Source: a virus | Virus record (IMG/VR): IMGVR_UViG_3300031565_000196 | Span: 1 to 33,948 of that record | Reading direction: 5' to 3' (one strand) | Length of the DNA stretch: 33,948 bases | Made by a program: the position numbers and the translations under genes | Notes under the pieces: model-generated | The model's input: only the letters and a program-made list of their open reading frames with translations | The model's database searches: none | Told to the model about the DNA's origin: nothing | Shown here: piece by piece, positions 1-33,462 of the stretch | How the letters are laid out: every line of letters begins with the position of its first letter | How positions within the stretch are numbered: position 1 is the first letter of the stretch

Positions 1-3000
1 AGTCTTCAGGTCCGTAATCGGTCCCTCCATCGTGTTGTAAAGGGCGATGAACGGCTTCGCGCCAGACTTCAACACGCCAACCGCCTCACTCACAATCGCG
101 TCGCTGCGCAATGAAAGGAGGTATTGATTGGACAGATTGAACAGGCGTGAGGCGAAGGTGACGGGCTCCAGCTTGACCTCCGCTTCCTCTCCAGCGACCT
201 GGTTCTCCGCGTCCTGCATCCCCTCGATTTTATCGTTGACCAGGCGCGCTAAGGTTTTCAGGTCACGAATGAACTGCGTGTAGTTATCCGCTGCCGCAAC
301 CTCGCTGACCGGGTTCTTACTGGTCGACCGAAAGCCCATCTTAACCCCAGTCCAATCCTGTTGTCGCCGCACCAGCTCGCCAGAAGACGCCAGCATCGAT
401 GTCAGCGCCTGCTGTAACGGCACTCCACCCTGAACCAGTGCATCCGTGAGGCCTTCGTTACTCAACCCGCTCAACTTGATGCTGGTGCCCAGCGCGTAAA
501 GCCCAAGGTTGTCGGGACGCTTAGCGAAGGTCGCACTGGAGAAATACATCCCCTTAGCCTGAGGCAACACTGAGGTGAATTTGAAGTTCACCTCGCTAGT
601 TGAACCAGCCGCTAGGTGGGCTTCATCCATGATGAAGATGGCCTTAGGCGCCAGGCTGCGCAGCATGTTCCATCGCGGACCATCCGGGCGCTCACCCTTC
701 TTCCGTTTGCGGGCGGCCCGCTGCTTGGCTGTTTCGACATAGCCTGACGGCTTGTCCGCTTTAAGTTGGTCGTAGGTAGTGAAGATGCCTTGCGCACCGC
801 CAGGCAGCAGGCCGGTCTGCGCTACCCCGTCCATCAAGTCAGTCATCTGCGCGGCGGTCCGGCTCTCCTTATGTTCCCGCCCCGCAGCATCCTCGTAATA
901 GCTCTGAGTATCCGTGATAAACGGGACGAAAGTCTTATTCCCCAACGCAGGCAAGTCCCGCGCCACCATATCGCTGTAGAGATTCTTCTTGGCTGTCACG
1001 AACACCGGCACCAACCCGCGCAACTGCGCATACTCAATGAGCGCCGCGACCATCCTCCCCTTCCCGACGCCAGTCTCATCAGCGACGATGAGAGCACTCC
1101 CCCGCTCGATGTTGCGAATTGCCAAGGCAACGGCGTCAATCTGAGCACCAGCCATCTGTGTGTGCAACTCAGCGGCACTTCGCTCGAGCTTCTCAGCAAC
1201 GAACTCATCGAGGGGTTTACCGACCTCCGCTTCCACCGTGCGCATGGCCTGAGCCATGTCATTGGCGATGTTGCGTGGAGCAACGAGATTGAGAGATGCC
1301 CCTTTACTGACTCCCACATAGGGGACCATCAAAGAGGCGGGAAGGCCTTCCGTTGGCGGACTTACTCGAGCTGGTTGAGCCGGGCCTGGTCCAGCAGCCA
1401 CCGGCCTTTGGCCGCCCACCCTCGGCGTCCCACCTGGTCCTGGCGCGGGGGCTCCTCCGCCAGCCACTTTGCCAGGCGCTCCGGGAGTTCCCGTGCCAAT
1501 ACCTGTGCTGGAATCTCCAACGACGCCTGTAGGTGGCGGCGGAGTTGGGTTGGGTCGTTCAACAGGTGGGGTTGCAGCTCCGCTCCCGGTCCTGCCGACG
1601 TCAGTAGGCTGTTCAGGTCGCGGAGCAGGTATTTGCGGTTTTCCGGGTCGCGGGGTTCGTTGGATTCCTGGTCGGACACTTGTTCCGCCAGGGCCTCGCC
1701 CAGCTTCTCCTGGGCTCTGTCTGTCAGGCTCTCGTGCATGTTCTGGTAGGAGTTGCGCTAATTCTTCCCATGTCTGAATAACCCTCGGTGGATTCACCCA
1801 AGGTCTCGTTAAACCACCCTCTTTCGAGGCTGGCGTTTTCCCTTTGCCGTGGACAATAACCACATCCACCGGCCAGGCCGCACCCATCTTCTTGTAAAGC
1901 TCGCCCCCAATGGTGAACCAGTCAACCACATTGAAGCGGTTGAAGAGGTCGAGCAACGCCGCCCGCTTGTATGAATTCGCCCGTTCCTGGGGTGCCGCAA
2001 ACTTGTTCCCGAATGGCGTGCCGGTCTTCGCGCCGATGATGGCGAAGGCTTTTCCGGCCGGGTCCATCGCCTGCAAACTGTTGAGCATGATGGCCACATC
2101 GATGCTCTTGGTTTGCGTGGCCGACGTTGTAGCTCCCTTGATAGGGAAGCTTTTCGCGGTGCCTTCAGCGCCAATCACACTACCAAACGGAGGATTCATC
2201 CCCAATCGGTCAGGCTTAGCTGCCTCCAGGAGGCTCTGGAACTCAGCCGTTGTAGCATCGTGACCACTGACTCCCTGCCTGTTGGTAACCTGTGCCAGGA
2301 AACGCCTCAATCGCACCTGCCTGTTCTGGTCGAACTCGTTGAGAGCAATCTTCGCCCCTTCACGAGCAGCGATGGACAACATTCCATGCCCAGCCGTAGG
2401 GTCCACGAACGCTTGCCCGCCAGGGATGTCGGCCATCAGCGATGCCGCGTAAGCCAGCGGAGGAGGCGTCGAATACTGCTGCGCGACCTTAGATTCAGCC
2501 GTGCGAGTCGTGCTGCTTGGCATCCGCTCGTAGAGATTCACCAGCGACCAAAATCGCTCCGGAGGGGTTTGGGTCTCATCCCGCGCAATCTCACGTGCGA
2601 CCTCAGTAGCAGCCAATTCCGCCCATTCATCGCTCTCCCGTTCACTCAGGCCAATCGCTTTACCAACCATCCTCACCACTCTCTGGTCTACGACCTGGCC
2701 CGTTCGGAGCTGGCTACCTACGGTATCAGCCAGGTCTTCAGGCGATGTTAAGGCACCCTCCACTACAGGCTGACCAGGCTCATCTACCGGCTGTTCTCCT
2801 CCTTCCGTGATAGACGGCTCCACGGGGGGCGCAATCGGCTCCAAGGGGGGCGCAGGCGGCTCCACGGGGGGGCCAGTCGGCTCCACGGGGGGCGCAGGAA
2901 CCCTCGGCGGCGCGGTCGGAGGTTCAGCAGGCGATGGAGGAGTCCTCGGCGTCGGGGCCGGAACCGGAGGCTCTGGCGCTGTTGGCGGCTCATAAGGCTG

Positions 3001-4185
3001 TCGGCCACGCGGAGGCGTAATGTCCCGTGGTGTGGCAGGTGGGGCTTCTGGCGCTATTACGATGTTGATAATCGGTTCACCGCGCTCAACTTTCGCTGCG
3101 AGCTGCTGCCGGGTAAGCGACGGGCGCCGCCCAATCTCTCCAGCCCCCATCAAACTCAATGCTATATTGGCCGTAACAGCATCTTCAAGTGCTTGGGCAG
3201 GGTTGTCTGCCTGAAGAATTCCCGGTGTCTGCAGGGCCAGGAGGTAAGCGTTATTCGCCAACTGCCCACCAGTGAACTCAAGAGCCTTCTGAACAGCCTC
3301 CTTCTTCAGAGCTGGATGGTGTTTCGCGATTTTAGCCGCGGCTTCCGCTGGTTTCGTGATTAAGATAGGTCGTGCCAGGGTTTTCCGGATGGTCGAGGCT
3401 GCAATCTCGCGGCCCAACTTATCGACATACGGCAGGCCTACAGCCGCCAACACTCCAATCGGGTCAACTTCACCCTCCTCATCAAACGCCATCGCCCCGA
3501 GATTAGCCACGGAATGAGGCGCCCCAGCCGCTCCTAAACCAGCCGCCACACCGATACGAGGGATAGCGTGCGCTACACCTTGGCCGACTTTACCAGGGAT
3601 TCTCGCCCAGGCGGGCAAGCGGTTCAATTCCTCTTGGATTGGCAGGGGCGCCTCGGGGTCGTTCGCGAATGCCCTCAAGTTAGGAACACCAGGCTCCCCC
3701 GAGAGCGTTTCAATAGCGTCACCGTGGGCCGCTGCGAGGACTTTACCCCCCTTGGACAATGGCGGTCCAACCGTCTTACCCAATGCCTCTATTGGCCCCT
3801 GTTGCTCTGAAATCACTTCCAACCCCAACCCCTCGAGCCCAGCGATGTATGACGCCTTGGCTTTGGCAATCTTGCTCGGACTTTCACCCGCCATCCCGAT
3901 GCGCGAGTCGTAGACTTTACGCATCTCATCTGCCTGCCGACTCACCTCCTGCTGCTGCTCTGCGAGAGTGGGGCCCGGTTCAGCCTTAGGCGGAGCACCA
4001 GGGACCGGTTGACCGGTGACCATGACCGGCTGCGACAGCGACGAGTGCTTGTGGAACTCAGTCCTAAACTCTTCGTTATCGAAGAACTCGGGATATCGCT
4101 TGCCGATGAACTGCGTCAGCTCCTGGTCTGAAACGTCGTTAAACCGCTCCTCCTTGGAACGGAAGAATTCGAGGACTTTACCCAT
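1..4185 (-). CDS. DarB-like polyvalent protein: N6-adenine methylase plus Strawberry-notch-type helicase, truncated by window edge
   Basis: One reading frame is open from ATG at 4185 to the left edge with no stop (1,395 codons seen), so the C-terminus is missing. The start overlaps the stop of the upstream gene (TAATG). Visible in order: an N-terminal segment like that of other internal virion proteins (DVSDQELTQFIGKRYPEFF, about residues 18-36); a helical, partly hydrophobic region to about 390; a Pro-rich linker; a methyltransferase with motif I DPTAGHG (595-601) and motif IV NPPFG (664-668); a Pro/Gly linker (about 815-945); and an SF2 helicase with Walker A GVGKGR (1039-1044) and the DEAH box (1187-1190). 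This order matches P1 DarB-type proteins, which travel in the virion and shield incoming DNA from restriction. Position directly after two internal virion genes supports ejection with the genome. The domains are strongly supported. Packaging and antirestriction are inferred. Confidence 0.85.
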   Translation of the reverse strand, partial: MGKVLEFFRSKEERFNDVSDQELTQFIGKRYPEFFDNEEFRTEFHKHSSLSQPVMVTGQPVPGAPPKAEPGPTLAEQQQEVSRQADEMRKVYDSRIGMAGESPSKIAKAKASYIAGLEGLGLEVISEQQGPIEALGKTVGPPLSKGGKVLAAAHGDAIETLSGEPGVPNLRAFANDPEAPLPIQEELNRLPAWARIPGKVGQGVAHAIPRIGVAAGLGAAGAPHSVANLGAMAFDEEGEVDPIGVLAAVGLPYVDKLGREIAASTIRKTLARPILITKPAEAAAKIAKHHPALKKEAVQKALEFTGGQLANNAYLLALQTPGILQADNPAQALEDAVTANIALSLMGAGEIGRRPSLTRQQLAAKVERGEPIINIVIAPEAPPATPRDITPPRGRQPYEPPTAPEPPVPAPTPRTPPSPAEPPTAPPRVPAPPVEPTGPPVEPPAPPLEPIAPPVEPSITEGGEQPVDEPGQPVVEGALTSPEDLADTVGSQLRTGQVVDQRVVRMVGKAIGLSERESDEWAELAATEVAREIARDETQTPPERFWSLVNLYERMPSSTTRTAESKVAQQYSTPPPLAYAASLMADIPGGQAFVDPTAGHGMLSIAAREGAKIALNEFDQNRQVRLRRFLAQVTNRQGVSGHDATTAEFQSLLEAAKPDRLGMNPPFGSVIGAEGTAKSFPIKGATTSATQTKSIDVAIMLNSLQAMDPAGKAFAIIGAKTGTPFGNKFAAPQERANSYKRAALLDLFNRFNVVDWFTIGGELYKKMGAAWPVDVVIVHGKGKTPASKEGGLTRPWVNPPRVIQTWEELAQLLPEHAREPDRQSPGEAGRGPGGTSVRPGIQRTPRPGKPQIPAPRPEQPTDVGRTGSGAATPPVERPNPTPPPPTGVVGDSSTGIGTGTPGAPGKVAGGGAPAPGPGGTPRVGGQRPVAAGPGPAQPARVSPPTEGLPASLMVPYVGVSKGASLNLVAPRNIANDMAQAMRTVEAEVGKPLDEFVAEKLERSAAELHTQMAGAQIDAVALAIRNIERGSALIVADETGVGKGRMVAALIEYAQLRGLVPVFVTAKKNLYSDMVARDLPALGNKTFVPFITDTQSYYEDAAGREHKESRTAAQMTDLMDGVAQTGLLPGGAQGIFTTYDQLKADKPSGYVETAKQRAARKRKKGERPDGPRWNMLRSLAPKAIFIMDEAHLAAGSTSEVNFKFTSVLPQAKGMYFSSATFAKRPDNLGLYALGTSIKLSGLSNEGLTDALVQGGVPLQQALTSMLASSGELVRRQQDWTGVKMGFRSTSKNPVSEVAAADNYTQFIRDLKTLARLVNDKIEGMQDAENQVAGEEAEVKLEPVTFASRLFNLSNQYLLSLRSDAIVSEAVGVLKSGAKPFIALYNTMEGPITDLKT
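2812..2895 (-). repeat. Four tandem 21-bp units (APPVEPx heptapeptide) in DarB-like linker
   Basis: Four in-frame 21-base units encode APPVEPT, GPPVEPP, APPLEPI and APPVEPS in the Pro-rich linker that precedes the methyltransferase domain. Such a stretch should behave as an extended, flexible spacer. The short near-identical units are prone to copy-number slippage, so linker length may vary between relatives. Confidence 0.85.
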
Positions 4186-5282
4186 TATTCAAAGAGTTTA
4201 TCGTCCTGGAACTCTTCGTAGAGAGACCGGGTCGGCTTCTTACTCGCGCCCGCCGCCCGCCCGGCCCAACCCGGACCGACAGGGGTGCCTGCGGGGATGA
4301 ATCCCTTATCACGCAACGACGCCGCTTGAGTCGCCCTCATGGCTTCCTCCTCGTTCAGAAATCCATCCTTATCCTTATCGAACGGAGCCAGGTCGATATC
4401 TTTGATTTCCTTTTTCTTCGGATAGAGCCTACCGGTCGACTCATCCCTGAGGTAGCCAGTCGGCTTACCCTCGGCATCCTCCGCTTCAATCAACCGCCCG
4501 CCGCCACTTCCCCTCTGAGGCGGTTTCGGAAGGAACGTGCCCGAACCAGAATCGCTTTGAACACCAAACCCAAGGTCCGGCCGCCCTGGCACCGGCAACA
4601 CCGTGCCCGGCTTAGGACCGCCAGACGCACGGAAGCCTTTGATAATGTCGTCATACTGGGCACCCGGATTGTAACCGCTTTGAGCAATCGCTCGAGGCAC
4701 ATCGACGTTTGGATTGAACGGTCGACCTTTAGGGCGGTCCGCCTCGGTGACGTCGCCGGATTCGTAGAACTGCTGCATCTCCCCGACACCCGGCTGCCCA
4801 GCCGCTCGCCGTGCAACATCAGCATAGAAGCCAGGCGCCCTCGCCTGGTTTTCACGGTCTGCCTCCAACCGCGCAGATTCCGCGTCCTGTCGTTTGATTT
4901 GCGCGTCGATATACCGGCCGTGCTGCTGCTCCTTCTCCTGCCTGCTCTTGATGCCCAACCCCTCCATATAACCGCGCAGCTCAGGCAAGCCCATCGAATC
5001 AAACTTGTCCGTGTCAGGCTCACGCTTTTCCTTCGTGCCAGACCGGCCGAAACCCTCGTCAGCGCCATCACCCTCCGCTTCACTCTTCTCGAGGGCCTTC
5101 AACGCCGACCGTAGACCACGAGCGATTGCCGCGTCATTCTTGTCCTTACGCTTTCGTTCACCGAACTGCGAGAGCATCTTGCCGACGCTTTGCCCGGCGC
5201 TCTCAAGGCCGCGTGCGAGGCTTTCACCGCCGCGCGCAATGAAGTAAGGCGATTGGTCCTGAACTTGTAGGTTAAATGGCAT
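4185..5282 (-). CDS. Putative internal virion/ejection protein with an EF-hand calcium-binding loop
   Basis: This 365-residue protein is hydrophilic, rich in Arg, Glu, Gly and Pro, and has no signal peptide or transmembrane segment. The middle (about residues 85-150) is charged and helical, and the following section is Gly/Pro rich. Residues 302-313 (DKDKDGFLNEEE) are a textbook 12-residue EF-hand loop, with Asp at 1, 3 and 5, Gly at 6, a hydrophobic residue at 8 and Glu at 12, flanked by short helices. The gene lies between another internal virion protein and the DarB-like gene: its start overlaps the upstream stop by 11 bases and its TAA shares a base with the next ATG. Position and composition suggest a DNA-ejection protein. 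I recognise no named family, so that role is inferred. The calcium-binding motif is seen directly. Confidence 0.75.
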   Translation of the reverse strand: MPFNLQVQDQSPYFIARGGESLARGLESAGQSVGKMLSQFGERKRKDKNDAAIARGLRSALKALEKSEAEGDGADEGFGRSGTKEKREPDTDKFDSMGLPELRGYMEGLGIKSRQEKEQQHGRYIDAQIKRQDAESARLEADRENQARAPGFYADVARRAAGQPGVGEMQQFYESGDVTEADRPKGRPFNPNVDVPRAIAQSGYNPGAQYDDIIKGFRASGGPKPGTVLPVPGRPDLGFGVQSDSGSGTFLPKPPQRGSGGGRLIEAEDAEGKPTGYLRDESTGRLYPKKKEIKDIDLAPFDKDKDGFLNEEEAMRATQAASLRDKGFIPAGTPVGPGWAGRAAGASKKPTRSLYEEFQDDKLFE

Positions 5283-6405
5283 GGCGTTGAGTCATTGAAT
5301 ATTCCCGGTCTTCCGCAATTCTGTCATCCATCCATTCCCGGATGGCTGGCTTGACGTGCTCGTTGACCTTCAGCCATTCAGCCAGCTCAGGCCCGAACAT
5401 GGTGTAAATCTGCACCAACCAATGAGGCGCACGAGTCAGGAGCCAGTTGCGGAATTCAATCCACTTCGGGTTACTCTCGCCATACACCTCACGGGCCACC
5501 CAACAGAAGGCTGCCGCACCGCCAGCCGCACTCCCGACCGCTCCAATAGCTGCTCCGTAGAGAGCTTTCTTGGACGCATCCTTCGCGGTCGCCTGGTTGC
5601 GGGCGCTGAACAGGTCCGCGTAGTAGGCGTTGAGCAAATCGCTGCCGTAAGTTGGCTCAATGGCACTATAAGGCGCCAGACGGCTGCTGGACTGACCTGC
5701 GGCACCCTGCGCAAACGGCAAGCTCGCCGCTGTCCGACCAAGCGTTGCAGTCATCGGGTCGAAACTGGAACGGTTGGATAGAGTGCTCTGCAATCCCTGC
5801 CGGCGCTGGCCGCGCAACTCCTCTCCACGGGTCTGCAACGCCAATGCTTCATGGAGTAAATCGTTCTCGCTGCCCTGGCCGAAACCCTGTCCCGACCTGT
5901 TGGTGCGCGAGAGCTGCTGGACTCTACGCAATTCTCGAGGGTCCATCTCCGCCCCCAGCCTGAACTGTTCGAGCGAGTCATCGAGGAGCTCATCTTCCGC
6001 GCCCTTACGAGCCACCTCGCGGGGGTCCGCGTCCTGCGCTTCCCTGAACGCTTGGGTGTATTGGGGGCCGAAGATACGCAAGTCCTCGAGGTCAGCCTCG
6101 CGTTGACCACGAGAAGCCAACTCCGACATTTCGCGGGACTGAGGACCGATGGTATCGCGGTAGATTTCGGCCATCAAACTAGCCGAACTCTGCTGCGTTT
6201 GGTCCTCTATCGCCTGGATGCGGGGCTGCAACTCCTCTTGCAAATCCACCCCTCCACGAATGAACGCGTTATACAGGTCGATTTTCTTCTGGCCCTTCTT
6301 ACCGAGCCTGTACTTTTTCTTCTTGTCGTTTAGCCCAAGCGAGTCGCCTAAAATTTTGCCACCCACAGGGTCGCTCATACCGAGAATGTCGCCGAAAAAG
6401 CTCAT
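5272..6405 (-). CDS. Putative internal virion (ejection) protein with C-terminal CWVAREVYG domain
   Basis: The 377-residue product begins with a basic segment and a long helical, Gln/Arg/Glu-rich region (about 40-230). It then has an Ala/Gly-rich hydrophobic stretch (about 283-301) that could insert in a membrane, and a C-terminal domain starting FCWVAREVYGESNPKW. That Cys-Trp-Val-Ala-Arg-Glu-Val-Tyr-Gly signature followed by a Trp-rich helical tail recurs in putative ejection proteins of podovirus-like phages. The start ATG at 6405 is preceded by an A-rich tract rather than a Shine-Dalgarno sequence. It is co-directional with the tail fibre gene upstream and overlaps the EF-hand gene downstream, as expected for a virion-internal block. 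The ejection role is inferred from the signature, the amphipathic composition and the position. Confidence 0.7.
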   Translation of the reverse strand: MSFFGDILGMSDPVGGKILGDSLGLNDKKKKYRLGKKGQKKIDLYNAFIRGGVDLQEELQPRIQAIEDQTQQSSASLMAEIYRDTIGPQSREMSELASRGQREADLEDLRIFGPQYTQAFREAQDADPREVARKGAEDELLDDSLEQFRLGAEMDPRELRRVQQLSRTNRSGQGFGQGSENDLLHEALALQTRGEELRGQRRQGLQSTLSNRSSFDPMTATLGRTAASLPFAQGAAGQSSSRLAPYSAIEPTYGSDLLNAYYADLFSARNQATAKDASKKALYGAAIGAVGSAAGGAAAFCWVAREVYGESNPKWIEFRNWLLTRAPHWLVQIYTMFGPELAEWLKVNEHVKPAIREWMDDRIAEDREYSMTQRHAI

Positions 6406-7972: not shown

Positions 7973-10561
7973 CTATGCTTTCGTTCCTGCGGAGTGATAC
8001 TCTTCGTTTGTCTCGATGGCCGTCGCCATGATGCGAATGCGACCCTGCTTGTTTGTGATGACTAATTGAGCCAACCGACCCGTGGCGTTAACCCGCTCCG
8101 TGATTCTACTCTCTTGATGCAAGTGCACATAGACGGGACTAATCGTGCCATCCTGGAGAGTCTTTCCAACCTCCAACGTCGGCCAAGCATCGGTTGCTGT
8201 TCCAAGGTAAACCGAATAATCTTCTCTATACGGTGCGTAAAATTCAGTGAACTGCCCAGCGTCATCGTAATCAGCCGCATCGCCTGGTTCGTAGAACTTC
8301 ACGCGGTCCCTCGTCCAGTCCGTCGTGACGTTACTCGATTCATTGACCCCACTTGTAACCACATCGATGTCGAGTTGAGGAGCCCACGTCTGCACATCCA
8401 CAATACCCCATTCGAAATCCGCCAACGCCATGACGTCACTACCATAACCCCTCGTGGTCATCTTGCTTACAATCGGCATCGTCGCCTGCTCCGAAACCAC
8501 CCAGGCATCTGAGCCAGTCGTGTGAATTCTTGGAATTGTTCCATCAGTGCTAAGGAAACGAATCCCACTATTCACGAGACTCCCCACAGGGAAGACACCA
8601 GCGGCCTCGGCATCTAAGTCCCTACTCTGCAATCGCAGCACCGTCGCGTTTCCAGCAGGCCAAGGATTACCAAGAATCGCTGCAAACCCCCACGTGGATG
8701 TATCCACATAGATGTTTTGCACCGCATTAAACCAACTCGCAAACGGGTTATCGCTTGAGAGCGTCGTTGACGTGTTGACACCCGTTGCCACCGTGACCAC
8801 GGTCCCGCCATTAACCTGAATAGTATCACCGTTCACCGGCTCAGCCGGATAAGGAAGCCTCACATCCGTATAAGGCTGCTGAAGCTGGTCCTCGAAATCC
8901 TCTTCGTAGAGCATCAAATTCCCCGAGGTCGTAACAATGAAGAGTCGCTCTCGACCACGGAAAGTCAGGAGAACAAAGTCAACGTAACCGACTCCCTCAG
9001 CTTCGTCGTAACCTGACCAGGCTTGGTTCAGGAAATCGTACACGAGAATCGCATTATTAACACCGACCTGCACCTCCTTCACACTGTTTCCCAGGCTAGA
9101 ACCATTGGTCACATTGGCTAACGTCAACGGGCTCGCTACTGGCGTTATGTTGCCACTGGAGAACAGCGTGGTTGTTCCGTCCGTCAGGCTGAGATTCGTT
9201 ACCGTCTTATCCCAACGGTAAGTCTTCCCAACCGTCACGGGAACCGTCAGACTTGCACCTGTTTCCAAGAAATAAGAACTATCGATAAGGTTCGGGCCAA
9301 GCACTTCAGCGTCATCCAGCGGAACAGCTAGGTAATACTTCGAGTCCCACACTTTGCCCACCGCTCCACTGGCGTAACCCCAATGGATGCGGTTGATTAT
9401 TGGTTGAATCGGGTCGCTAATCGGCAGCGTAACACCTTGGAGCTTGTTCTCAACAGTCTGAACAAGGGACATGACTCCCAATTCACTCAGGAACCACAGG
9501 TCTCGACCGACATGAGCAATGGACTTTCTGGCCACACAGCCATACTCAGTCGTTATCTCGTCCTGCTGCAACGCGCTGAGATTGCCATAGACATTGAGCA
9601 GGCCGTAAAGGCTGTGCTCCTTCAAGGCGATGATAGTCGTATCATTGAACTTAAAGATAGCCACCAACTCATCCGCGCTCCCCTGGTTCACTTTGAACTC
9701 CTGAAGAATCGGGACGTAGCGGGTGTAGTCGTTCAAATCACTGACGGCAACCTCGTCGTTGTCGTTAGGAACGAACAACCGGTTTTGGAGAAACAACGAA
9801 TGCGTTGCGTTCGGGATTCCTTGCGTTCCATCACCGCGCGGCGACTTGTCGGCAAGCTGCCACGGGAGAGTAATCCTCGGAAGTTTGAGAGCAGAATCAG
9901 AAACCCCTCGATGCATAAGCAGCACATCGAACGTTTGCGTGAACTCCACTTTCCCCGTGAGCGTAACCCCAGCAGGCAACGTCATTAGCTGAGGTTGATT
10001 GTGCGGTTGCGTGTAGTAGACCTGCCCCTCTGCCGCGATAATCAGGTATTCCTGGAAAGTAAACGGGTCACTGAACACGCCAACGCCATGAACTTCCGAC
10101 CAGGGCTGTGTCTGGAACGTGTTAATCACTGGAGTGCCAGTCGCTGGAGGCTCAGTCCCGGTAGACGTGAACGTCGTGAACACCGTAGGACTCACGACCG
10201 TGACCACCTCATGCGGAGCGTTATAGGCCGCCTGGTCTGCGCCCGACACTCTTGCAATCGAACCAACGCGCAACCCGTGGTTAACGGCGGTCGTGAACGT
10301 CCAAATTTCAGGGAACCCAGACTCGATAATCGAATTTATAGTAATCGTGCCGGTAGATGTCTTGTTGGCCCACGGTGGGAAGACGAATCCTTTTCGAGTC
10401 TCCGCGACGCCAAATCGGAATCGCATGTTAACAGCGTCACTGACGTAACCTGGTGGGACGATTTTGGGGTCCAAGCGAGCGTTGACACCGACGAACCTCA
10501 TGTCACCTTGCGGTTTCGGTTCGTCGTCTAGCTGGCCGTATTGGTCGTAGCGCGTTGTCAT
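7973..10561 (-). CDS. Tail nozzle / tail tubular B-like protein
   Basis: An 862-residue beta-rich protein. The opening (GDMRFVGVNARLDPKIVPPGYVSDAVNMRF) and the central repeated segments with FNDTTIIALKEHSLYGLLNVYG and DLWFLSELGVMSL are what one sees in phage nozzle or tail tubular B-type proteins (P22 gp10/T7 gp12 role), which form a propeller-like ring extending the short tail. Residues about 84-146 form an inserted module with NHGLRVGSIARVSGA and FTTFTSTG. A related module is found in the head-tail adaptor at 15333-16601. The gene lies three bases from the repeat-rich fibre gene upstream and is immediately followed by the tail fibre. The length fits large nozzle proteins. The family call is by pattern recognition, and the role in tail assembly is inferred from the family and position. 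Confidence 0.75.
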   Translation of the reverse strand: MTTRYDQYGQLDDEPKPQGDMRFVGVNARLDPKIVPPGYVSDAVNMRFRFGVAETRKGFVFPPWANKTSTGTITINSIIESGFPEIWTFTTAVNHGLRVGSIARVSGADQAAYNAPHEVVTVVSPTVFTTFTSTGTEPPATGTPVINTFQTQPWSEVHGVGVFSDPFTFQEYLIIAAEGQVYYTQPHNQPQLMTLPAGVTLTGKVEFTQTFDVLLMHRGVSDSALKLPRITLPWQLADKSPRGDGTQGIPNATHSLFLQNRLFVPNDNDEVAVSDLNDYTRYVPILQEFKVNQGSADELVAIFKFNDTTIIALKEHSLYGLLNVYGNLSALQQDEITTEYGCVARKSIAHVGRDLWFLSELGVMSLVQTVENKLQGVTLPISDPIQPIINRIHWGYASGAVGKVWDSKYYLAVPLDDAEVLGPNLIDSSYFLETGASLTVPVTVGKTYRWDKTVTNLSLTDGTTTLFSSGNITPVASPLTLANVTNGSSLGNSVKEVQVGVNNAILVYDFLNQAWSGYDEAEGVGYVDFVLLTFRGRERLFIVTTSGNLMLYEEDFEDQLQQPYTDVRLPYPAEPVNGDTIQVNGGTVVTVATGVNTSTTLSSDNPFASWFNAVQNIYVDTSTWGFAAILGNPWPAGNATVLRLQSRDLDAEAAGVFPVGSLVNSGIRFLSTDGTIPRIHTTGSDAWVVSEQATMPIVSKMTTRGYGSDVMALADFEWGIVDVQTWAPQLDIDVVTSGVNESSNVTTDWTRDRVKFYEPGDAADYDDAGQFTEFYAPYREDYSVYLGTATDAWPTLEVGKTLQDGTISPVYVHLHQESRITERVNATGRLAQLVITNKQGRIRIMATAIETNEEYHSAGTKA

Positions 10562-10564
10562 GTC

Positions 10565-12667
10565 CTAGAATGCGATTAGCTTAGCCGATTGCCATTCACC
10601 GGAAGCGCCCCCGTCCCGGCCGAATTGCACCTGATATTCGGTGCCGTTGGCGAGACTTAATTTCTCAGAACGCAGCCGAATTTGGTCAGTCGACGCAGTG
10701 CTCACCTCGGAATCCACCACCAGATTGCCATCAACATCCACCAAGCGCGCGTAAACCGTCCCCGAAACTGCCTTGATATACACCTCGAGATACAGGCTGC
10801 TCGTTTTCCAGTTCTCTGAGGTCCAAAGGAAAGGCGCCCCAACCGTCAAGAACACCCTTACCGATGGCGAACCGAGCGCCAGCGTGCTGGCGATACCATC
10901 CAGCGTGACAGGCCCAGCAACAATATGAGTGCCGAAAGCCAGTGTGCTGGCAATGCCGTCCGGGTCCACTTGCTGCGCGCCGCCCACATTGATAGCAATA
11001 GGGCTACCTAGAACCAAGGTGGACGCCAGCCCGTCGGGGTAAATCGTCAGGTTGAGCTGCTGCGTCCCAAAGGTCAGGGTGGAGGCGATGCCAGTCAGGC
11101 TAATCGGACCAGCCACCGTAGGGCTCCCCAACGCCAGCGTGCTGGCAATGCCGTCCGGGTCCACCTGCTGTGTCCCTCCACCCACTGTAGCAGCCGGGCT
11201 CCCCAGAGCCAAGGTGGACGCCAGGCCGTTAGGGTAAATCGTCAGGTTGAGCTGAGGGCTCCCTAACGCCGTCGTGGAGGCGATGCCAGCCGGATGGACG
11301 GTTAGGTTAACCTGAGGGCTCCCTACGGCCACCGTGGACGCCAGGCCGGACGGGTAGATAGTCAGGTTGACCTGCGGACTTCCCAACGCCGTCGTGGACG
11401 CGATGCCGTCCGGCGTGACCTCCTGGTCAGCGATTACCGTAGGACTACCCAGAGCCAGGGTGGACGCCAGGCCGTCAGGGTAAATCGTCAGGTTGACCTG
11501 CGGACTACCCAGGGCCGCCGTGGAGGCGATGCCATCCGGATAAATGGTCAGGTTGACCTGCGGGCTCCCCAACGCCAGCGTGCTGGCAATGCCGTCCGGG
11601 TCAACCTGCTGTGTCCCGCCACTAACCGAAACCGCAGGACTCCCCACGGCTATCGTGGAGGCCAGGCCGTCCGGGTAGATAGTCAGGTCGAGCTGCTGCG
11701 TCCCAAAGGTCAGGGTGGACGCCAGGCCGTCGGGGTAAATCGTCAGGTTGAGCTGCGGACTACCCAGGGCCGTCGTGGAGGCCAGCCCGTCGGGGGAGAT
11801 GGTCAGGTTGACCTGAGGGCTTCCGAGCGCCGTCGTGGAGGCGATGCCGGTCGGCGTCACCTCTTGGGCAATGATTACCGTCGGGCTCCCCAAGGCCACA
11901 GTGGAGGCCAGGCCGTCGGGGTAAATCGTCAGGTTGACCTGCGGGCTCCCCAGCGCCGTCGTGGAGGCCAGGCCGTCAGGGTAAATCGTCAGGTTGAGCT
12001 GAGGGCTCCCCAGCGCCGTCGTGGACGCGATGCCGGTCGGCGTAACCTCTTGGTCAGGAAACACCGTAGGGCTACCCAATGCCGTTGTGCTGGCGATGCC
12101 AGTCGGCGTGACTGTCTGGCCACTCGAAACAATCGGACTCCCGACCGCTATCGCGTTGGCGATGCCCGTAGGCGTTACCGTCTGGTTTGCATCAGGAGTT
12201 TCAAGCCAAACATCCTTGACGGCACACTGCCGGTTGGCCCCGCCGCCGTTCTTCTGCGCATAACAGCGGAACGAAAGGGCACTGTAATCGGTGATCGAGT
12301 CCGCCTCGGCCCCGGAGAGAGTGTAGGCAGATTCTACTACCGTCGCGGTCGTTACGAAGATCGAGGTCGACGCCCTGAGAGTTCCCTGCGAAGCCTCGCT
12401 GACGTAACCTTCTCGGAGTTGGACAAAGATATCATAGTTAGCTCCGCCCGACGCTTTGTTACCGCGAATGGCGAGTATATGCCCCGTCCCTACGGCAGGG
12501 TCAGTTACCGTTGTCCCCTTGCAAGTGAATGGTTCGCTGGATGTCGGGCTACTGTCCGATATTCCTTGCGTCGAGTCCGACGAGTCATTGATCTTGCTCC
12601 ACAGCGGCGTGGTTGTCCATGCGCCCGTGTTATCGGTATCGCTCGCTGGTCTTGAGAACTGCGCCAT
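10565..12667 (-). CDS. Fibre-like structural protein with about 21 tandem GIAST repeats
   Basis: The ATG at 12667 gives MAQFSRPASDTDNT..., a characteristic N-terminal start, so it is chosen over a GTG 51 bases upstream that would run through a hairpin. No clear Shine-Dalgarno is visible. The product is 700 residues. Residues about 1-160 form a lectin-like beta domain. About residues 162-600 are some 21 copies of a roughly 20-residue unit with core G(I/L)ASTTALGSP joined by variable linkers such as QVNLTIYPD or TVIADQEVTPD. The last 100 residues are a separate beta domain (about TVGAPFLWTS to the end). Similar Gly-Ile-Ala-Ser/Gly-x-Pro repeats occur in environmental phage proteins, but I know of no established function. 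The place between tail genes suggests a fibre shaft or surface appendage. Confidence 0.8.
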   Translation of the reverse strand: MAQFSRPASDTDNTGAWTTTPLWSKINDSSDSTQGISDSSPTSSEPFTCKGTTVTDPAVGTGHILAIRGNKASGGANYDIFVQLREGYVSEASQGTLRASTSIFVTTATVVESAYTLSGAEADSITDYSALSFRCYAQKNGGGANRQCAVKDVWLETPDANQTVTPTGIANAIAVGSPIVSSGQTVTPTGIASTTALGSPTVFPDQEVTPTGIASTTALGSPQLNLTIYPDGLASTTALGSPQVNLTIYPDGLASTVALGSPTVIIAQEVTPTGIASTTALGSPQVNLTISPDGLASTTALGSPQLNLTIYPDGLASTLTFGTQQLDLTIYPDGLASTIAVGSPAVSVSGGTQQVDPDGIASTLALGSPQVNLTIYPDGIASTAALGSPQVNLTIYPDGLASTLALGSPTVIADQEVTPDGIASTTALGSPQVNLTIYPSGLASTVAVGSPQVNLTVHPAGIASTTALGSPQLNLTIYPNGLASTLALGSPAATVGGGTQQVDPDGIASTLALGSPTVAGPISLTGIASTLTFGTQQLNLTIYPDGLASTLVLGSPIAINVGGAQQVDPDGIASTLAFGTHIVAGPVTLDGIASTLALGSPSVRVFLTVGAPFLWTSENWKTSSLYLEVYIKAVSGTVYARLVDVDGNLVVDSEVSTASTDQIRLRSEKLSLANGTEYQVQFGRDGGASGEWQSAKLIAF
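10860..12186 (-). repeat. Tandem array of about 21 units of roughly 60 bp within the fibre gene
   Basis: Each unit encodes a core like GIASTTALGSP or GLASTLALGSP. Three linker classes alternate: short ones giving QVNLTIYPD (about 60 bp), ones giving TVIADQEVTPD, and longer ones giving a Gly-rich linker then QQVDPD. A few units carry the variant core LTFGTQQLN. Neighbouring units are near-identical at the DNA level over long stretches, which points to expansion by unequal recombination or slippage. Counting by eye gives 21 cores, and one or two degenerate ends are arguable. Confidence 0.9.
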
Positions 12668-12678
12668 TGCAACAAGTA

Positions 12679-12706
12679 GGGCCGACCGCCCCACAACGGT
12701 CGGCCC
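12679..12706 (-). terminator. Perfect 10-bp hairpin ahead of the repeat fibre gene (terminator-like, no U tract)
   Basis: GGGCCGACCG and CGGTCGGCCC form a perfect 10-bp G+C-rich stem with an 8-base loop in the short gap between genes. On the transcribed (minus) strand it is followed by TACTTGTTGC and not by a run of T, so a strong intrinsic terminator is unlikely. It may attenuate transcription, stabilise an mRNA 3' end, or mark a processing site. The downstream gene starts 12 bases later. Confidence 0.45.
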
Positions 12707-12735
12707 ATTTTCCCACACCTACCCAACAATCCAAC

Positions 12736-13149
12736 CTACAGCGCGAAGATTTTATTAGCGCCACTGTCCCACGCAACAGTGATGTCACCGCCGTTGGGAG
12801 TGACAGGTAAGCCAGTGCCGGTATCGAAGTTGCAGATGAGCGGCGATGTCGTAGCTACGGTCGTATCCTTCCATACCAGCACGAAATCAATCGCCGCCCC
12901 AGCGCCGACCGCACTGAAGGTGATGTCCGTTGCATCAAAGACGCCATCGGTAACTGATTTTCCGGCCAGGTTCGCGCTGTCTGCTACCCGCGTCGTCGCA
13001 GCCGGGTCCAAATACTGGTCCGTGCTGTAATTGGGCGTATAAGCACTGGCCCGCACCAAGGAGCATTTGATGTTATCCGTGTCCAAGTCGATGGAAGGGT
13101 TTTGAGAGATGAAGCTCTCCTTGCATTTGCTGTACATCGTGTTCGCCAT
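12736..13149 (-). CDS. Conserved small phage structural protein
   Basis: The 137-residue product (MANTMYSKCKESFISQ...) matches from memory a widespread family of small phage proteins: a short helix, then a beta-rich segment with DTDNIKCSLVRASAYTPN, and a C-terminal VTPNGGDITVAWDSGANKIF motif. Members usually sit in tail or fibre regions, and their biochemical role is unknown. ATG at 13149 is preceded by TTAAAAATT with no Shine-Dalgarno sequence. It lies 5 bases downstream of the small fibre-like gene and 68 bases ahead of the repeat-rich fibre gene, with a hairpin between. I am confident it is a real gene and unsure what it does. Confidence 0.75.
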   Translation of the reverse strand: MANTMYSKCKESFISQNPSIDLDTDNIKCSLVRASAYTPNYSTDQYLDPAATTRVADSANLAGKSVTDGVFDATDITFSAVGAGAAIDFVLVWKDTTVATTSPLICNFDTGTGLPVTPNGGDITVAWDSGANKIFAL

Positions 13150-15332: not shown

Positions 15333-16601
15333 TTATCTGGTTTGGACGTTGAGTTGTTTGGTCTGCCCCTGAAGCCGTTCCACTTTATCAAACTCGATTT
15401 GGAGCAACCGATAGGCTTCCTTCAGTTCCTGGCCCCACTTGCTGCTCTTACCAGTGACCTTGAGCAAATCTGCATAAGCAGCATGCGCTACCGCCGCTTT
15501 AAGAACGTAAGGGAAATCCAACTTCGTCCAGTGAGTAGTCGTCGCAGGGTTTTGTCCACTGGTTGCCTGAATGCACACGTAATACTCGCCGGTCACCGTA
15601 TAGTAAACCTGGTCACCGACGGCGTGCACGCCTGACGTGACCCACGTATTTCCCGTGAAGTCGTTCGGGCGAATGCGGAAATGGAGGTAGACCACCTGCG
15701 AACCACCCCGCACAACCACACCGTCGCTGGTCAAAGAGAAATCCTGCTCCTCAGCATCTTCAACAATCCACGGATGCTTACTCCAAACGTCCTGCACCTC
15801 ACCGATTGCGGTCGCGGTAGCACCTTGGTTGCTGGTGGCGCTGGGGTCGAAGTCGATGTCTCGCTTAAACGGCGTCAGAACACCCCAATAGCTAGTGTTT
15901 GGAGGTTGCTGGTTGGTGTGCGCCAAGATGCATTGATACGTGCGGCCATCGAGAGGTTGGTAAACCAACGTACCGACACTATAAGCCACCGTCGCACCCC
16001 ATTCATTGCTTGGAGTGTATTCCGGTTCCCCCACCGCCCAATGCGACGTGACTGTTTGATTGCCGCTATTCGTTGGATTGATACCAGCCAGAAGCGTCCC
16101 TGTCGCGTCCGCTCCGGGGTCCGCTGGCATGACGTAGGTAAACTGCGTGCTACTCGTGACCGTGGCCGTCCAGGTGCCGTTGAAGGTGGCTTGAGCTGCG
16201 CCTGAAATTGTGATGCGAGGAGTTGAGCCGACGGTCAGATTGTGTCCGGCTGCATACGTAGCGGTTGCCGTGAGGTTCCCCGTTCCACCCCTCTCCAAGG
16301 TAGTCAGGGTGACTGGTTGATTCCGTAAGGCCTGGTAATAGGCTTCCGAAGGCCAGTAGTAGACTTCGGTGGCAGCCGTCGCTGTGCTGGCGGCGTAAGT
16401 CGCCGTGCCGTCATAGGCTGGCCGAAACGTGCGCTGCTCCACGCGCATCATCTCCTGCCAGAAGAACCTCTCGAAGAACTCGCGATAGCGGGCGTTGATG
16501 AAGACGTTCAGCGACGCAGTATCGTCAGCCGTGGCGTTCACCTTACCGGCAAAATGGACATTGGCCCTGTCCAGCACACTTTTATAGGTGACTGTTCTCA
16601 C
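15333..16601 (-). CDS. Head-tail adaptor protein with inserted beta modules and two CBM5/12-like motifs
   Basis: GTG16601 gives MRTVTYKSVLDRANVHFAG, which fits the usual start of this family. A TTG 27 bases earlier would lie inside the tRNA. The 422-residue product has a helical N-terminus (LNVFINARYREFFERFFWQE, 31-50) and a helical C-terminus (about 362-408), as in podovirus adaptors/tail tubular A-like proteins. Between them are insertions: a beta module at about 97-170 (GHNLTVGSTPRITISG, FNGTWTATV), and two short chitin/cellulose-binding-like motifs, WGATVAYSVGTLVYQ...YQCILAHTN...YW (201-239) and AVGDQVYY...YYVCIQATSG...HW (327-358). The second motif sits just before the C-terminal helices. 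The ring role is inferred from family and position, and sugar binding is only suggested by motif. Confidence 0.7.
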   Translation of the reverse strand: MRTVTYKSVLDRANVHFAGKVNATADDTASLNVFINARYREFFERFFWQEMMRVEQRTFRPAYDGTATYAASTATAATEVYYWPSEAYYQALRNQPVTLTTLERGGTGNLTATATYAAGHNLTVGSTPRITISGAAQATFNGTWTATVTSSTQFTYVMPADPGADATGTLLAGINPTNSGNQTVTSHWAVGEPEYTPSNEWGATVAYSVGTLVYQPLDGRTYQCILAHTNQQPPNTSYWGVLTPFKRDIDFDPSATSNQGATATAIGEVQDVWSKHPWIVEDAEEQDFSLTSDGVVVRGGSQVVYLHFRIRPNDFTGNTWVTSGVHAVGDQVYYTVTGEYYVCIQATSGQNPATTTHWTKLDFPYVLKAAVAHAAYADLLKVTGKSSKWGQELKEAYRLLQIEFDKVERLQGQTKQLNVQTR

Positions 16602-16605
16602 AAAT

Positions 16606-16680
16606 TGGTAGCAGGGGCCGGAATCCAACCGACGGTCTCAGCGTTATGAGCGCAGCGAGATAGCACTTCTCTACCCTGCA
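16606..16680 (-). tRNA. tRNA-Met (CAT), initiator-like, CCA encoded
   Basis: On the minus strand a 75-base cloverleaf folds: acceptor TGCAGGG/CCCTGCT with a T.T mismatch at 1:72, T8, D stem GAGA/TCTC with a 7-base loop lacking the usual GG, anticodon stem-loop CTGCG-CTCATAA-CGCTG (anticodon CAT), a five-base variable loop, T arm GTCGG-TTGGATT-CCGGC, discriminator A and an encoded CCA. The 1:72 mismatch, the A11:T24 pair and three consecutive G:C pairs at 29-31:39-41 are hallmarks of bacterial initiator tRNA. A 28:42 mismatch and the reduced D loop are flaws. The tRNA ends 4 bases before the GTG of the adaptor gene and begins 10 bases after the stop of the gene before it. Charging and use in initiation are not proven. 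Confidence 0.85.
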
Positions 16681-17720: not shown

Positions 17721-18770
17721 TTAGGTGTTGTAGATTTTCCCGTTGCCCTTTGGATTGAGCCCGATGAGCGCGAACATGGCTTTGACGTAACCACTCAAGC
17801 CACCCGCATTTTCATCCTGGTCAACCGAGTGAAGGTTCTCCAGGAAGAGCAACTGCCACAGGTTCATCTTCAGGATGTAAGCAATCTTCGGGTCACCAAG
17901 ACCAGAAGAGGCACTCACACCATTGAACTGCGTCGGCACCATGTTGGCTCGACCGAAGGTCGAATCGAACACGGATACCGAAAGAGTGATTTCCTTTTTG
18001 CTGGCCTGTTCCTGCACCTGATACCGAGCGTTCGTTGTGCTGGTGTTGACCCGCGTGAAGTTGTCGACGGTTTGACAGATGTCATCCCCAGCGATGACCA
18101 TGTAATCCTGTTTCCCACCGTGAATCTTTTGAAGATTCCTCAGCAGATGAACGAAGATAGGTTCCGTCAACTTCGTCAAGTCATCGACGCCGCTAACGAT
18201 GGTTTCGGTGGTTGCACTCGCCTCGAAGGTTGACTCATCCCTCTCACCAGGCGGACGGAAATCCGCAGGCACCGGTTGAGTTGCTTGAGCGGCTGCCTGA
18301 ATCCAGGTGAACAGGCCGCGCGTGCGCATCTCCGAGTCGCTTCCGCCCTGCATCTCCTGAGAGCCGCAACAGACCGCCTCCATATCGCGCTTGACCTCTC
18401 GCAGGGCTTTCGCCTTGGAGTTGCCATACTCGTTGTCCACGGCCGCGACGCCGCCCCGGCGACTGATGGCCTGCTGAACGTCGGTGACACCGAATTCATC
18501 CTGAACACGGTGAACGTAGGAGCCGAAGCGCGTGCGCTTAGCTGCCTTGTTGTTGCCCTTGCCAGCATCCTGACCTTCCCGCGTGCCGCTCGTGCGAGGC
18601 TTGCGGAGAGTGTCAGCCAATACTTCGATGAAGGTTGCGTTGGGTCCGTCGCCTTTAGTGACGGCACTGGTGAAAGGAGTCTCTTCAGGCTCCAGGATTG
18701 TGAGGATATCCCGTAAATCCTCACGGTTACCACCGATTGTGCTCGGTGAGCCATAGCTATCTGCAATCAT
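17721..18770 (-). CDS. Major capsid protein, SU10/DUF5309 type
   Basis: The 349-residue product opens with a segment containing GGNREDLRDILTILEPEETPFTSAV near residues 13-37, the diagnostic start of the SU10-type (DUF5309) capsid family, which has the HK97 fold. Downstream segments, including FGSYVHRVQDEFGVTDVQQAISRRGG, HGGKQDYMVIAGDD and a C-terminal KMNLWQLLFLENLHSVDQDENAGG, are also typical. It forms the icosahedral shell. The scaffold gene ends 9 bases upstream, as expected for co-assembly. ATG18770 is preceded by GCGCAAAACT with no Shine-Dalgarno sequence, so translation may rely on coupling or an A-rich leader. The family call is strong. Confidence 0.88.
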   Translation of the reverse strand: MIADSYGSPSTIGGNREDLRDILTILEPEETPFTSAVTKGDGPNATFIEVLADTLRKPRTSGTREGQDAGKGNNKAAKRTRFGSYVHRVQDEFGVTDVQQAISRRGGVAAVDNEYGNSKAKALREVKRDMEAVCCGSQEMQGGSDSEMRTRGLFTWIQAAAQATQPVPADFRPPGERDESTFEASATTETIVSGVDDLTKLTEPIFVHLLRNLQKIHGGKQDYMVIAGDDICQTVDNFTRVNTSTTNARYQVQEQASKKEITLSVSVFDSTFGRANMVPTQFNGVSASSGLGDPKIAYILKMNLWQLLFLENLHSVDQDENAGGLSGYVKAMFALIGLNPKGNGKIYNT

Positions 18771-20589: not shown

Positions 20590-22713
20590 TTACGCACCAA
20601 GTCTCCCGATTACCGCATTTTCGCGCTGCTGGAGTTGAAATTGAAGTTGCTGGAGCCGCTTGTCCATCACTTCTTTGAAGCGCCCCTCCTTTTCATACTG
20701 CTCTTTTGCCATTGGATTGGTTGAAAAGATGTTCTGGAGCGTCTGCAGGCGCAATTCGTAGGCTTGCCCCTCCTCCTTCACATCCACATCCAATCCGGCC
20801 ATGAGCTGGGCGAAGACATTCTTCTCGTCCTCAATCTCTGCCTGGCTGGCTTCCGGCGCTGGTTTCAAGATGCGCTCGCCAATATCAGGGTCAATCAGTT
20901 CGAAAATGACGTCTAACGCCTGGTTCCGGTCAACCCGGCCCGTGGTATCCATCATCAGAGCTTTCTCAATGAGCCCCAACTTGGCCGCTACCAGCTCATT
21001 ATCCAAATCCGCGACGTTGTAGCCCACCGAGACGTCGAACTCTCCCTGAATCTCATCGTGAGTCGCCTTAAGCGGCTTCGCCTGGCCGCTGCCCACGACT
21101 CGGAAATAAATCTCTTCAGGCAGGAACTGCTGGCAGAGCTTCAAGATGTGCGTGTCCACCATCGCCAGACCATCCATCCAATTGTTAATCATGTCCTGAC
21201 GCATGACCTGGCTCTGGACCTTGTTCTGCTCATCGACAGGCCGCCCGAAATACTCGTCACTGAATTTGCGAAGACTTTCCTCCATTTCTACAGACCCGGG
21301 GTCATACTTCGGGATGTCCAAAAAGCCGTAATCATCCTTCGCGATAGTAGGAATCTGGACCCCCGGGCCCCACTTATCAGGCGCACTCCCGCTTGGGTAG
21401 TAGCTAGGCGGCAGAGTCGCAATGCTAGTGCGGTCAACCCGAGCGTCCCACTGCGTTTTGATGCCCTGCTGCCAGGTAAACCCGATTTCCCCATAGCCGC
21501 GTGCATCATCGAGGAGTCGGGACCGGGATTCGCGTTCGATATGGATGAACGGATACTCGCCGTGGTCATAGTCCATCATGCCGTGGTAGGCATATTCTGT
21601 CGTGCTGAACGCACTGAAAACGGTGTAAAACACACCAGGAACACCATTTTCGTCGTGTTGACGGCGCCAGACGTGAATCACCTCAAACAGCTCTTTAGTG
21701 GTCAACAAGCCGCTGCTGGTGACGGTAGTTGCCCTGAGGGCACCCCGATTATACTGGGCCTCGATATCCAGCGTGACATTGCCTCGCTGCTTCTTGAGCA
21801 TGAATTTAATCCATTTCCCGCTCCACCCATGCGTTTGCTGGCGCTCAACCAGCTCCGACTCAGTAAGCAGCTCTCGGCGGTAAATGCCGCGAGCCGACTG
21901 GATGTCCGTTGTGTCCGGAGGAATGAAAATCTCTTCATTAGGGCGGAGAGCGACGACGCACGGCCGGTCTTTCGCGATATATGGCCGCGGCAAACGAGTC
22001 GAGCCCTCTTCACGAAGTTCCCGCACAGCCTTGCGGAGATGCGGTAACTGAACACTTGGGAATCCGAGCTTTAGCGCCTGAATTGCCTCCTTCTCCAACG
22101 TCGGGTCTTGGATGAGTTCCGGCAGGCGGATGAGCAGTAGGGCTTCCGGAGGCATCTCCTGGCCCTCTTCTGCCGCCGCCTTCAGCTCGAGGGCAATACT
22201 GGCCATCTCCTCCAAGTCCAAGTCTTCGTAGCGTAACTGCTGGCGCCGTTCCCAGAAGATGCCAAACACAGTGCTACCGTTCTCGAGCATGTAATTGGCC
22301 CCCAGCCGTCGCTCTCGCGGGAATTCCCTCATCTGAGTGCTCTTCATCCACCTCAGGAGGTTCGTAACTCGGTGAGCGAAAGCGGCATCGTTAGATTCTG
22401 TGCCAGAGACCATGACGCGCATCCGCTTGGCGACTACCTGCATCATCGCTACGTCTTCATTGATGTATTTGTCCATCAAGGCGACGCGCGAATCACTAGC
22501 CCCCGCCCAAGGGAAAGGCTTCTTACCAGACTCCGCGCTCCACTTTTTACCGTCTCGGGATTGGTGAGCCCAGACGTTGTAACGGGCTTCGTAATTGATA
22601 CGTTGCCGGTTGAAAATGGAGCGGTCGCGGCGCTCGATGGCGTCGACAAACTGTTCTTTAAGCTCCTTTAGGTCCGGTTTCTCATTCGCCAACTCTCTGA
22701 AATCATCTTGCAC
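20590..22713 (-). CDS. Portal protein
   Basis: The 707-residue product has an N-terminal helical segment (about 1-50), a PFPWAGASDSRVALMDKYINEDVAMMQ segment (about 66-92), a long helical stem region, a wing-type central domain (about 250-400), and a C-terminal helical crown with Gln-rich coils (about 600-700). This layout matches large podovirus portals, through which DNA enters and leaves the head. It follows the terminase and HTH genes and precedes the scaffold and capsid genes. The start is GTG22713, with no clear Shine-Dalgarno. An 84-base gap with the 32-bp element precedes it. The call is by size, context and segment order. Confidence 0.82.
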   Translation of the reverse strand: MQDDFRELANEKPDLKELKEQFVDAIERRDRSIFNRQRINYEARYNVWAHQSRDGKKWSAESGKKPFPWAGASDSRVALMDKYINEDVAMMQVVAKRMRVMVSGTESNDAAFAHRVTNLLRWMKSTQMREFPRERRLGANYMLENGSTVFGIFWERRQQLRYEDLDLEEMASIALELKAAAEEGQEMPPEALLLIRLPELIQDPTLEKEAIQALKLGFPSVQLPHLRKAVRELREEGSTRLPRPYIAKDRPCVVALRPNEEIFIPPDTTDIQSARGIYRRELLTESELVERQQTHGWSGKWIKFMLKKQRGNVTLDIEAQYNRGALRATTVTSSGLLTTKELFEVIHVWRRQHDENGVPGVFYTVFSAFSTTEYAYHGMMDYDHGEYPFIHIERESRSRLLDDARGYGEIGFTWQQGIKTQWDARVDRTSIATLPPSYYPSGSAPDKWGPGVQIPTIAKDDYGFLDIPKYDPGSVEMEESLRKFSDEYFGRPVDEQNKVQSQVMRQDMINNWMDGLAMVDTHILKLCQQFLPEEIYFRVVGSGQAKPLKATHDEIQGEFDVSVGYNVADLDNELVAAKLGLIEKALMMDTTGRVDRNQALDVIFELIDPDIGERILKPAPEASQAEIEDEKNVFAQLMAGLDVDVKEEGQAYELRLQTLQNIFSTNPMAKEQYEKEGRFKEVMDKRLQQLQFQLQQRENAVIGRLGA

Positions 22714-24989: not shown

Positions 24990-25009
24990 AGTCTAGGGTC
25001 TGTGCTCAT
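24986..25009 (-). CDS. Seven-codon mini-ORF MSTDPRL, possible translational coupler or gene remnant
   Basis: ATGAGCACAGACCCTAGACT encodes M-S-T-D-P-R-L followed by TGA. Its start overlaps the Dcm stop (ATGA), and its stop overlaps the terminase ATG (TATGA). The opening resembles the first codons of the duplicated MST- genes upstream. It could keep ribosomes moving from Dcm to terminase, or be the leftover head of a deleted gene. Too short to be certain. Confidence 0.4.
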   Translation of the reverse strand: MSTDPRL

Positions 25010-33308: not shown

Positions 33309-33462
33309 CCATTCGTCAAATTAACCGCTTTTGCATCCAAATTTTCCGAGCCCGAACCTATACACTCTCACACGCCCGGCCGCGAGTTCGACCCCCCCCC
33401 CCCCCACTTTGACCGGCAATAGTTGCCTAGCCGTAGTGATGGGCAGGAATTGCCTAGACTGG
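33309..33462 (-). promoter_or_regulatory. 154-base control region: 14-G tract and paired operator-like palindromes
   Basis: No gene occupies this gap. It contains a homopolymer of 14 C on the plus strand (33392-33405). Two copies of a 16-base site lie 27 bases apart at 33415-33430 and 33442-33457. The first is GGCAATAGTTGCCTAG, a perfect 5-base palindrome arm around TAG, and the second is GGCAGGAATTGCCTAG, with 13 of 16 bases equal. The 21-base repeat at 33446-33466 overlaps the second site. The HTH gene ends at the edge. This looks like an operator cluster. I see no convincing -35/-10 pair. Confidence 0.55.

Follow-up and report, generated by a model that had tools for sequence, protein, structure and literature searches.

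The window analysed here, the whole 33,948-nucleotide stretch of viral record IMGVR_UViG_3300031565_000196, begins within a giant minus-strand gene that joins an N6-adenine methylase to a superfamily 2 (SF2) helicase. The linker between these domains appears to hold a complete second gene, here called X, in the +1 frame, conserved in related phages and in mobile elements of several bacterial phyla. We read the locus as encoding, in overlapping frames, a giant injected methylase-motor of the DarB kind and a separately translated X that acts as its partner, and give this reading a probability of roughly 60%. The dyad of methylase and helicase is already known (PMC5512222), as are short-tailed phages with a giant DarB-like virion protein (JC1; PMC9144972). 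X is undescribed in the open-licence papers that we searched.

A predicted nested gene in the methylase-helicase linker

The giant gene and X occupy the following positions in the window.

1..4185 (-): giant methylase-helicase (polyvalent) gene, first 1,395 codons, from open frame, motifs, and Pfam; the 3' part lies beyond the contig
3061..4185 (-): N-terminal region, codons 1-375, without a known-domain match; 60% identical in L004
2761..3060 (-): first Pro-rich linker, codons 376-475, 39% Pro; ordinary divergence, no nested-gene signal
1786..2508 (-): N6-adenine methylase domain, codons ~560-800, with NPPFG at 2182-2196; from motifs and a profile match
1321..1785 (-): second linker, Gly/Pro/Ala-rich in the giant frame; third codon positions frozen over most of its length
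1362..1739 (-): predicted nested gene X, ATG start, 125 amino acids (aa), +1 frame relative to the giant gene (protein P0003); from substitution pattern and conserved position
334..1185 (-): first lobe (AAA_34) of a Strawberry-notch-type SF2 helicase, with Walker A GVGKGR at 1054-1071 and DEAH at 616-627

L004 is the giant-gene locus on contig G001 (IMGVR_UViG_3300037479_000143; 43,133 bases), and its copy of X (130 aa, L004:10926-11318) is 69% identical to that of the window. Relatives in IMG/VR were retrieved with an alignment query, yielding 80 loci; a single-protein query of viral contigs confirmed none. When the linker was scored in these loci, 79 passed the motif test directly, each of them with a +1 open reading frame (ORF) of 90 to 163 aa at the place of X. 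L007 passed only with a relaxed motif and has an X of 152 aa. Bacteroides phage BS-TP4 has an unannotated X of 119 aa at the same place. The +2 frame over the linkers of the scored relatives mostly holds no ORF of note. The length of a +1 ORF is weak evidence here, since the Gly/Pro-rich codons leave few +1 stops, and we therefore relied on substitution patterns, start signals, and phylogeny.

Fourfold-degenerate third positions of the giant frame are 91% identical between the window and L004 over codons 826 to 900, versus 27% expected, and about 20 to 50% identical across most of the rest of the gene. Rates of substitution at codon positions 1, 2, and 3, from 20 pairs, come to.248/.198/.377 for the X frame and, on the bases it shares, to.369/.245/.213 for the giant frame, with the ordinary pattern in the flanking methylase (.216/.167/.494) and helicase (.176/.119/.482). 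A scan of the whole gene in 15 pairs found the reversed codon-position pattern in 20 of 25 scanning windows inside X and in 8 of 704 outside it. Substitutions in the overlap follow the X frame and not the giant frame, and X is under long-term purifying selection.

The giant frame through the linker is also held open. It is free of stops in every X-bearing homologue scored. Resampling the codons of X in 69 sequences gave a probability of the giant frame staying open of at most 0.002 for 44 of them (median, 0; sum ln p = -355 over all 69). Third positions of X, which are first positions of the giant frame, change more slowly than third positions of the flanks (0.377 versus 0.48-0.49), as expected with selection on both frames. 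Dual-frame constraint in the linker is thereby shown by computation.

A Shine-Dalgarno (SD) motif lies before 47 of 69 X starts and before 9.7% of other +1-frame ATGs, an odds ratio of about 20; the P value of this enrichment is overstated because related sequences are not independent, and the motif nonetheless recurs in many separate clusters. The start codon is ATG in 59 of the 69.

Distribution, origin, and predicted structure of X

Bacterial genome contigs added 80 further homologues of the giant gene. Those that carry X come from Cyanobacteriota, Thermodesulfobacteriota, Pseudomonadota, Myxococcota, and one Bacteroidota clade. Homologues of another Bacteroidota clade, whose linkers are mostly short, lack X, as do those of the Pseudomonas and Vogesella plasmids and of Acinetobacter phage. 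On a quick, unrooted helicase tree of 126 rows, 105 of them with X, presence of X requires 2 changes, compared with about 20 for shuffled labels. This pattern would fit one origin and one loss, or else two events of the same kind. The median distance from the methylase to Walker A is 253 residues without X and 365 with X. Because linkers that lack X are mostly shorter by about its length, the comparison suggests that X entered as an insertion and that the other frame became the tether.

We used leave-one-cluster-out profiles to test homology of X between clusters, and profiles built without a given cluster recover the X of several others significantly. Since X sequences diverge so fast, the homology of the window X to far clusters is based mostly on position, frame, and size. 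A profile built from viral X also found WP_230844304.1 of a Gloeobacter plasmid, an annotated protein whose gene is likewise nested; single-sequence tblastn searches found no X in plasmids. Comparison with Pfam, PHROGs, NCBIfam, and PDB sequences returned chance-level matches only, with no HNH, other nuclease, or known domain, and X has no similarity to P1 Ulx, a small DarB helper. AlphaFold2 predicts the X of L009 confidently as an alpha/beta protein (pLDDT 93.2, pTM 0.87). Foldseek searches with the L009 and window models gave no PDB match (best E above 1), and the L009 model had none in the viral structure library.

The giant protein among known methylase-helicase dyads

The giant frame of the window holds the methylase motifs YSTPPP, DPTAGHG, and NPPFG and the SF2 helicase motifs GVGKGR, DEAH, and SAT. 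Residues 1001 to 1284 match Pfam AAA_34, the N-terminal part of Strawberry-notch helicases (E=8e-9). Methylase core residues are invariant or near-invariant across 25 relatives, and the giant-family profile matches the type I methylase subunit EcoR124II M. The original prediction of a frame of at least 1,395 residues joining an N6-adenine methylase and a DEAH-bearing SF2 helicase is thus borne out. The frame is open for 1,395 codons from 4185 to 1 and runs off the contig, no stop or frameshift near the left edge removes the helicase core, and profiles recover both the Strawberry-notch helicase and the methylase, as that prediction had proposed to check. It had also described Pro-rich linkers, of which the second encodes X in another frame as well.

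The window and L004 giant genes are 63% identical over 1,387 aligned codons, with differences concentrated at third positions (426/311/767 at positions 1/2/3). The giant frame is not a product of chance, because the same gene in L004 shows nonsynonymous divergence (dN ~0.32) far below synonymous divergence (dS ~1.6). The L004 ORF is complete at 3,147 aa (L004:8432-17875), so the gene runs past the contig end, as had been surmised. This longer protein adds a second helicase lobe, Helicase_C_4 (E=7e-20), which is also found in L005 and L012 and lies beyond the contig in the window. Circular closure of the window, which would make the right-end frame 33463-33948 the end of the giant gene, was rejected: this right-end frame belongs to another gene, one collinear with G001 12721-13116. 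An HExxH motif (HEIGH), typical of metallopeptidases, can be read directly from the L004 sequence 3' of the helicase, where Pfam gives a sub-threshold M90 peptidase match only. A 3,677-aa relative (L005:7160-18193) has an inorganic-pyrophosphatase-type (InPase) domain before the methylase. Comparison of the window DNA with phage records found no nucleotide similarity.

Iyer et al. (2017; PMC5512222) described the "DNA methylase-helicase dyad" of polyvalent proteins, with Strawberry-notch forms among its variants, an association with phage late regions, and DarB as the archetype, and counted such dyads among the commonest modules of polyvalent proteins in phages and plasmids. Judged by its sequence, the giant protein is a new member of this family and agrees with it in all features tested: a gamma N6-adenine methylase with a TP motif and NPP(Y/F), an SWI2/SNF2-clade SF2 helicase (here AAA_34) fused C-terminal to the methylase, and a gene near the virion late genes. 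LPD36, which precedes the methylase in the dyad, had no match in Pfam scans, for which the presence of the model in the library was unchecked and the GXGU motif was not sought. The main text of that paper contains none of the overlapping-gene terms searched for, whereas the window linker carries a conserved nested gene.

P1 DarB is a virion-head protein active against EcoK/EcoB (PMC9024508, PMC5512222). It is likewise a giant protein in which a methylase is followed by an SF2-class motor. BLASTP of the window protein against DarB gives nothing significant, and in a profile comparison (hhalign) of the window family with DarB the methylase alone aligns. P1 DarB and BcepIL02 gp70 have an SNF2-type helicase (PF00176/PF00271), in contrast to the Strawberry-notch type (AAA_34) of the window. 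With a different helicase family and an alignment confined to the methylase, the window protein is, on sequence comparison, not an orthologue of DarB, whether of P1 or of Bcep22-like phages. The earlier label "DarB-like" stands for the architecture, for the place at the end of the virion block, and as the best guess at a role; BLASTP, profile, and helicase family all speak against orthology to P1. The two longest +1 ORFs of the P1 darB gene are 127 and 118 aa.

The Bcep22-like short-tailed phage JC1 has a 4,515-aa DarB-like protein, gp69, identified in purified virions from 51 unique peptides (PMC9144972). A virion-borne version in a podovirus-type phage, which the original prediction had offered as new, is therefore already documented. 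BcepIL02 gp70 and JC1 gp69 resemble the window gene in lying at the end of the virion module, in size, and in combining methylase and helicase, and differ from it in their SNF2-type helicase and their SLT, LPD3, and LPD38 domains. Their genes, and those of BcepMigl and DC1, hold a different nested +1 ORF (~107 aa, MTETQLLELL...) just before the methylase, whereas X sits between methylase and helicase.

L087:13296-13616 (BcepIL02): Bcep22-like nested ORF, also in L086 (BcepMigl), L186 (JC1), and L187 (DC1)

A full SD (AAGGAGG) precedes this ORF in three of the four phages, and it has the reversed codon-position pattern, as in X, to which it has no significant similarity; the phage records annotate the DarB-like gene alone at this place. 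In the L061 giant gene, a possible further nested +1 ORF (129 aa, ATG) lies near codon 1459, and the L061/L066 pair has a reversed window at codon 1450. BS-TP4 gp3 (5,391 aa), which also has X, is 30% identical to the window protein over ~870 aa of methylase, linker, and helicase; it differs from the window protein in that it is much longer, is encoded next to the portal gene, and belongs to a different phage lineage.

G001 is a sister phage of the window. The two are collinear as circular permutations, which suggests a near-complete G001 and, possibly, packaging of permuted genomes in this phage group. Judged by G001, the window lacks mainly the rest of the giant gene and ~3.5 kb. The giant gene is last in a block of virion genes, with the major capsid protein, portal, and head-closure-like genes running in the same direction.

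4185..5282 (-): 365-aa protein directly upstream of the giant gene; 34% identical in L004; putative internal virion protein by position only
5272..6405 (-): 377-aa protein; 56% identical in L004; its C-terminal 69 aa match a phage HMO-2011 hypothetical protein (42%)
7973..10561 (-): 862-aa protein in virion module context; head-closure (Hc3) family match, E=4.5e-7
17721..18770 (-): major capsid protein, SU10_MCP family; ~81% identical in G001
20590..22713 (-): portal protein; 77% identical in G001

The first two had been taken for ejection genes; neither has a PHROG match or a Pfam match above the family cut-off. A tail-type 717-aa protein (10565-12718, minus strand) contains many near-identical repeats, GIASTTALGSPQVNLTIYPDG-like. 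A tRNA-Met (CAT) lies between structural genes (16606-16680, minus strand); the listed TTG start of the ORF at 15333-16628 falls within this tRNA, which makes a true start further in probable. The window also has another DNA methylase gene, a stand-alone one, at 25006-25980 (minus strand; PHROG 363, E=9e-79), and a long intergenic run of C at 33392-33405, near the right end.

X as a candidate partner of a probably injected enzyme

The complete giant polyvalent protein would be about 3,100 aa long and would comprise an N-terminal region, the gamma N6-adenine methylase, the Strawberry-notch-type SF2 motor, and C-terminal regions. The analogy with the DarB proteins of P1 and of Bcep22-like phages makes it probable that the protein is packaged and ejected with the genome, and it would methylate or otherwise shield the incoming DNA as the motor travels along it. 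X would be made independently, from an internal +1-frame start codon inside the linker, and would act as a partner that escorts the giant protein into the capsid or as a regulator that restrains the enzyme in the producing cell. In the giant frame the linker would be a flexible low-complexity tether, which tolerates the constraint imposed by X. That X works with the giant protein is most likely because it is locked between both domains across most of the sampled tree. We thus infer packaging, ejection, antirestriction, separate translation of X, and its action on the giant protein; ejection and antirestriction are reasonable because the BcepIL02 giant gene is last in its virion module and the JC1 relative was found in virions. 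To our knowledge, described partners of methylase-helicase dyads are known for P1 only.

Several observations weigh against this reading. The X starts of the window and of L004 have no SD. The length of the X ORF by itself is not significant in GC-rich members (window, P=0.265). AlphaFold2 models the window X with only moderate confidence and as all-helical (pLDDT 72.4), and a profile built without the window cluster finds the window X marginally, albeit as its best match (E=0.34). DarB, the source of the analogy for packaging and ejection, has a different helicase family.

The same locus could be explained in other ways. A programmed ribosomal frameshift into the +1 frame would yield a methylase-X fusion ending before the helicase, and hence two versions of the enzyme from one gene. 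X does follow directly after the methylase, its frame ends before the helicase in every case, and in some members it is open for 13 to 50 codons upstream of the start. In most members, however, a stop in the X frame 0 to 7 codons upstream leaves almost no room to shift, and SD together with ATG is strongly enriched at the start, making a frameshift quite improbable. Coding in one frame only, with separate genes for methylase, X, and helicase and a giant frame that is open by accident, accords with the low complexity of the giant frame over the linker and with the Gloeobacter annotation, which calls X a gene and starts a helicase gene after it. We consider this very improbable, given that no scored X-bearing homologue has a stop in the giant frame, that resampled X codons mostly break it, and that X third positions are slow.

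X might also be a selfish or once-mobile insertion that occupies the linker as the least harmful site and does nothing for the methylase-helicase. ShiLan, an out-of-frame homing HNH endonuclease within phage DNA methylase genes (PMC11855218), offers a precedent for a gene hidden in another frame of such a gene, and the shorter linkers of X-less homologues agree with an insertion. Yet ShiLan lies within the methylase and X between domains, where it appears anciently fixed; X matches no HNH or other known domain, has been under long-term purifying selection, and changes presence only twice on the tree, unlike a homing element. A selfish origin is accordingly rather improbable and, like a frameshift product, less likely than a separately translated partner. 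A question apart from X is whether the giant protein, instead of being ejected, acts late in the producing cell, in methylation of progeny DNA, packaging, or replication. The stand-alone methylase gene indicates that the phage may modify its DNA otherwise. The giant size, the place at the end of the virion module, and the proven presence in virions of the JC1 protein, which shares architecture class and position, argue for ejection, and we regard purely late action as unlikely, if worth bearing in mind.

A conserved gene within the dyad that the examined phage records omit is an immediate candidate for a partner, and it supplies a confidently modelled protein for which neither the PDB nor the viral structure library searched had a match. 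More broadly, and tentatively, at somewhat less than even odds, X may be an ancient gene of single origin whose product, by escorting packaging or by regulating activity, is the dedicated partner of injected methylase-helicase machines across phages and across mobile elements of several bacterial phyla, and giant polyvalent genes more generally may hide small partner genes in disordered linkers; the latter is suggested by the separate nested ORF of Bcep22-like darB. The case of X shows that a low-complexity linker in a giant phage gene can double as coding sequence in a second frame. Nested genes of this kind may go unnoticed in other giant genes, since even the well-studied Bcep22-like darB genes appear to hold one.

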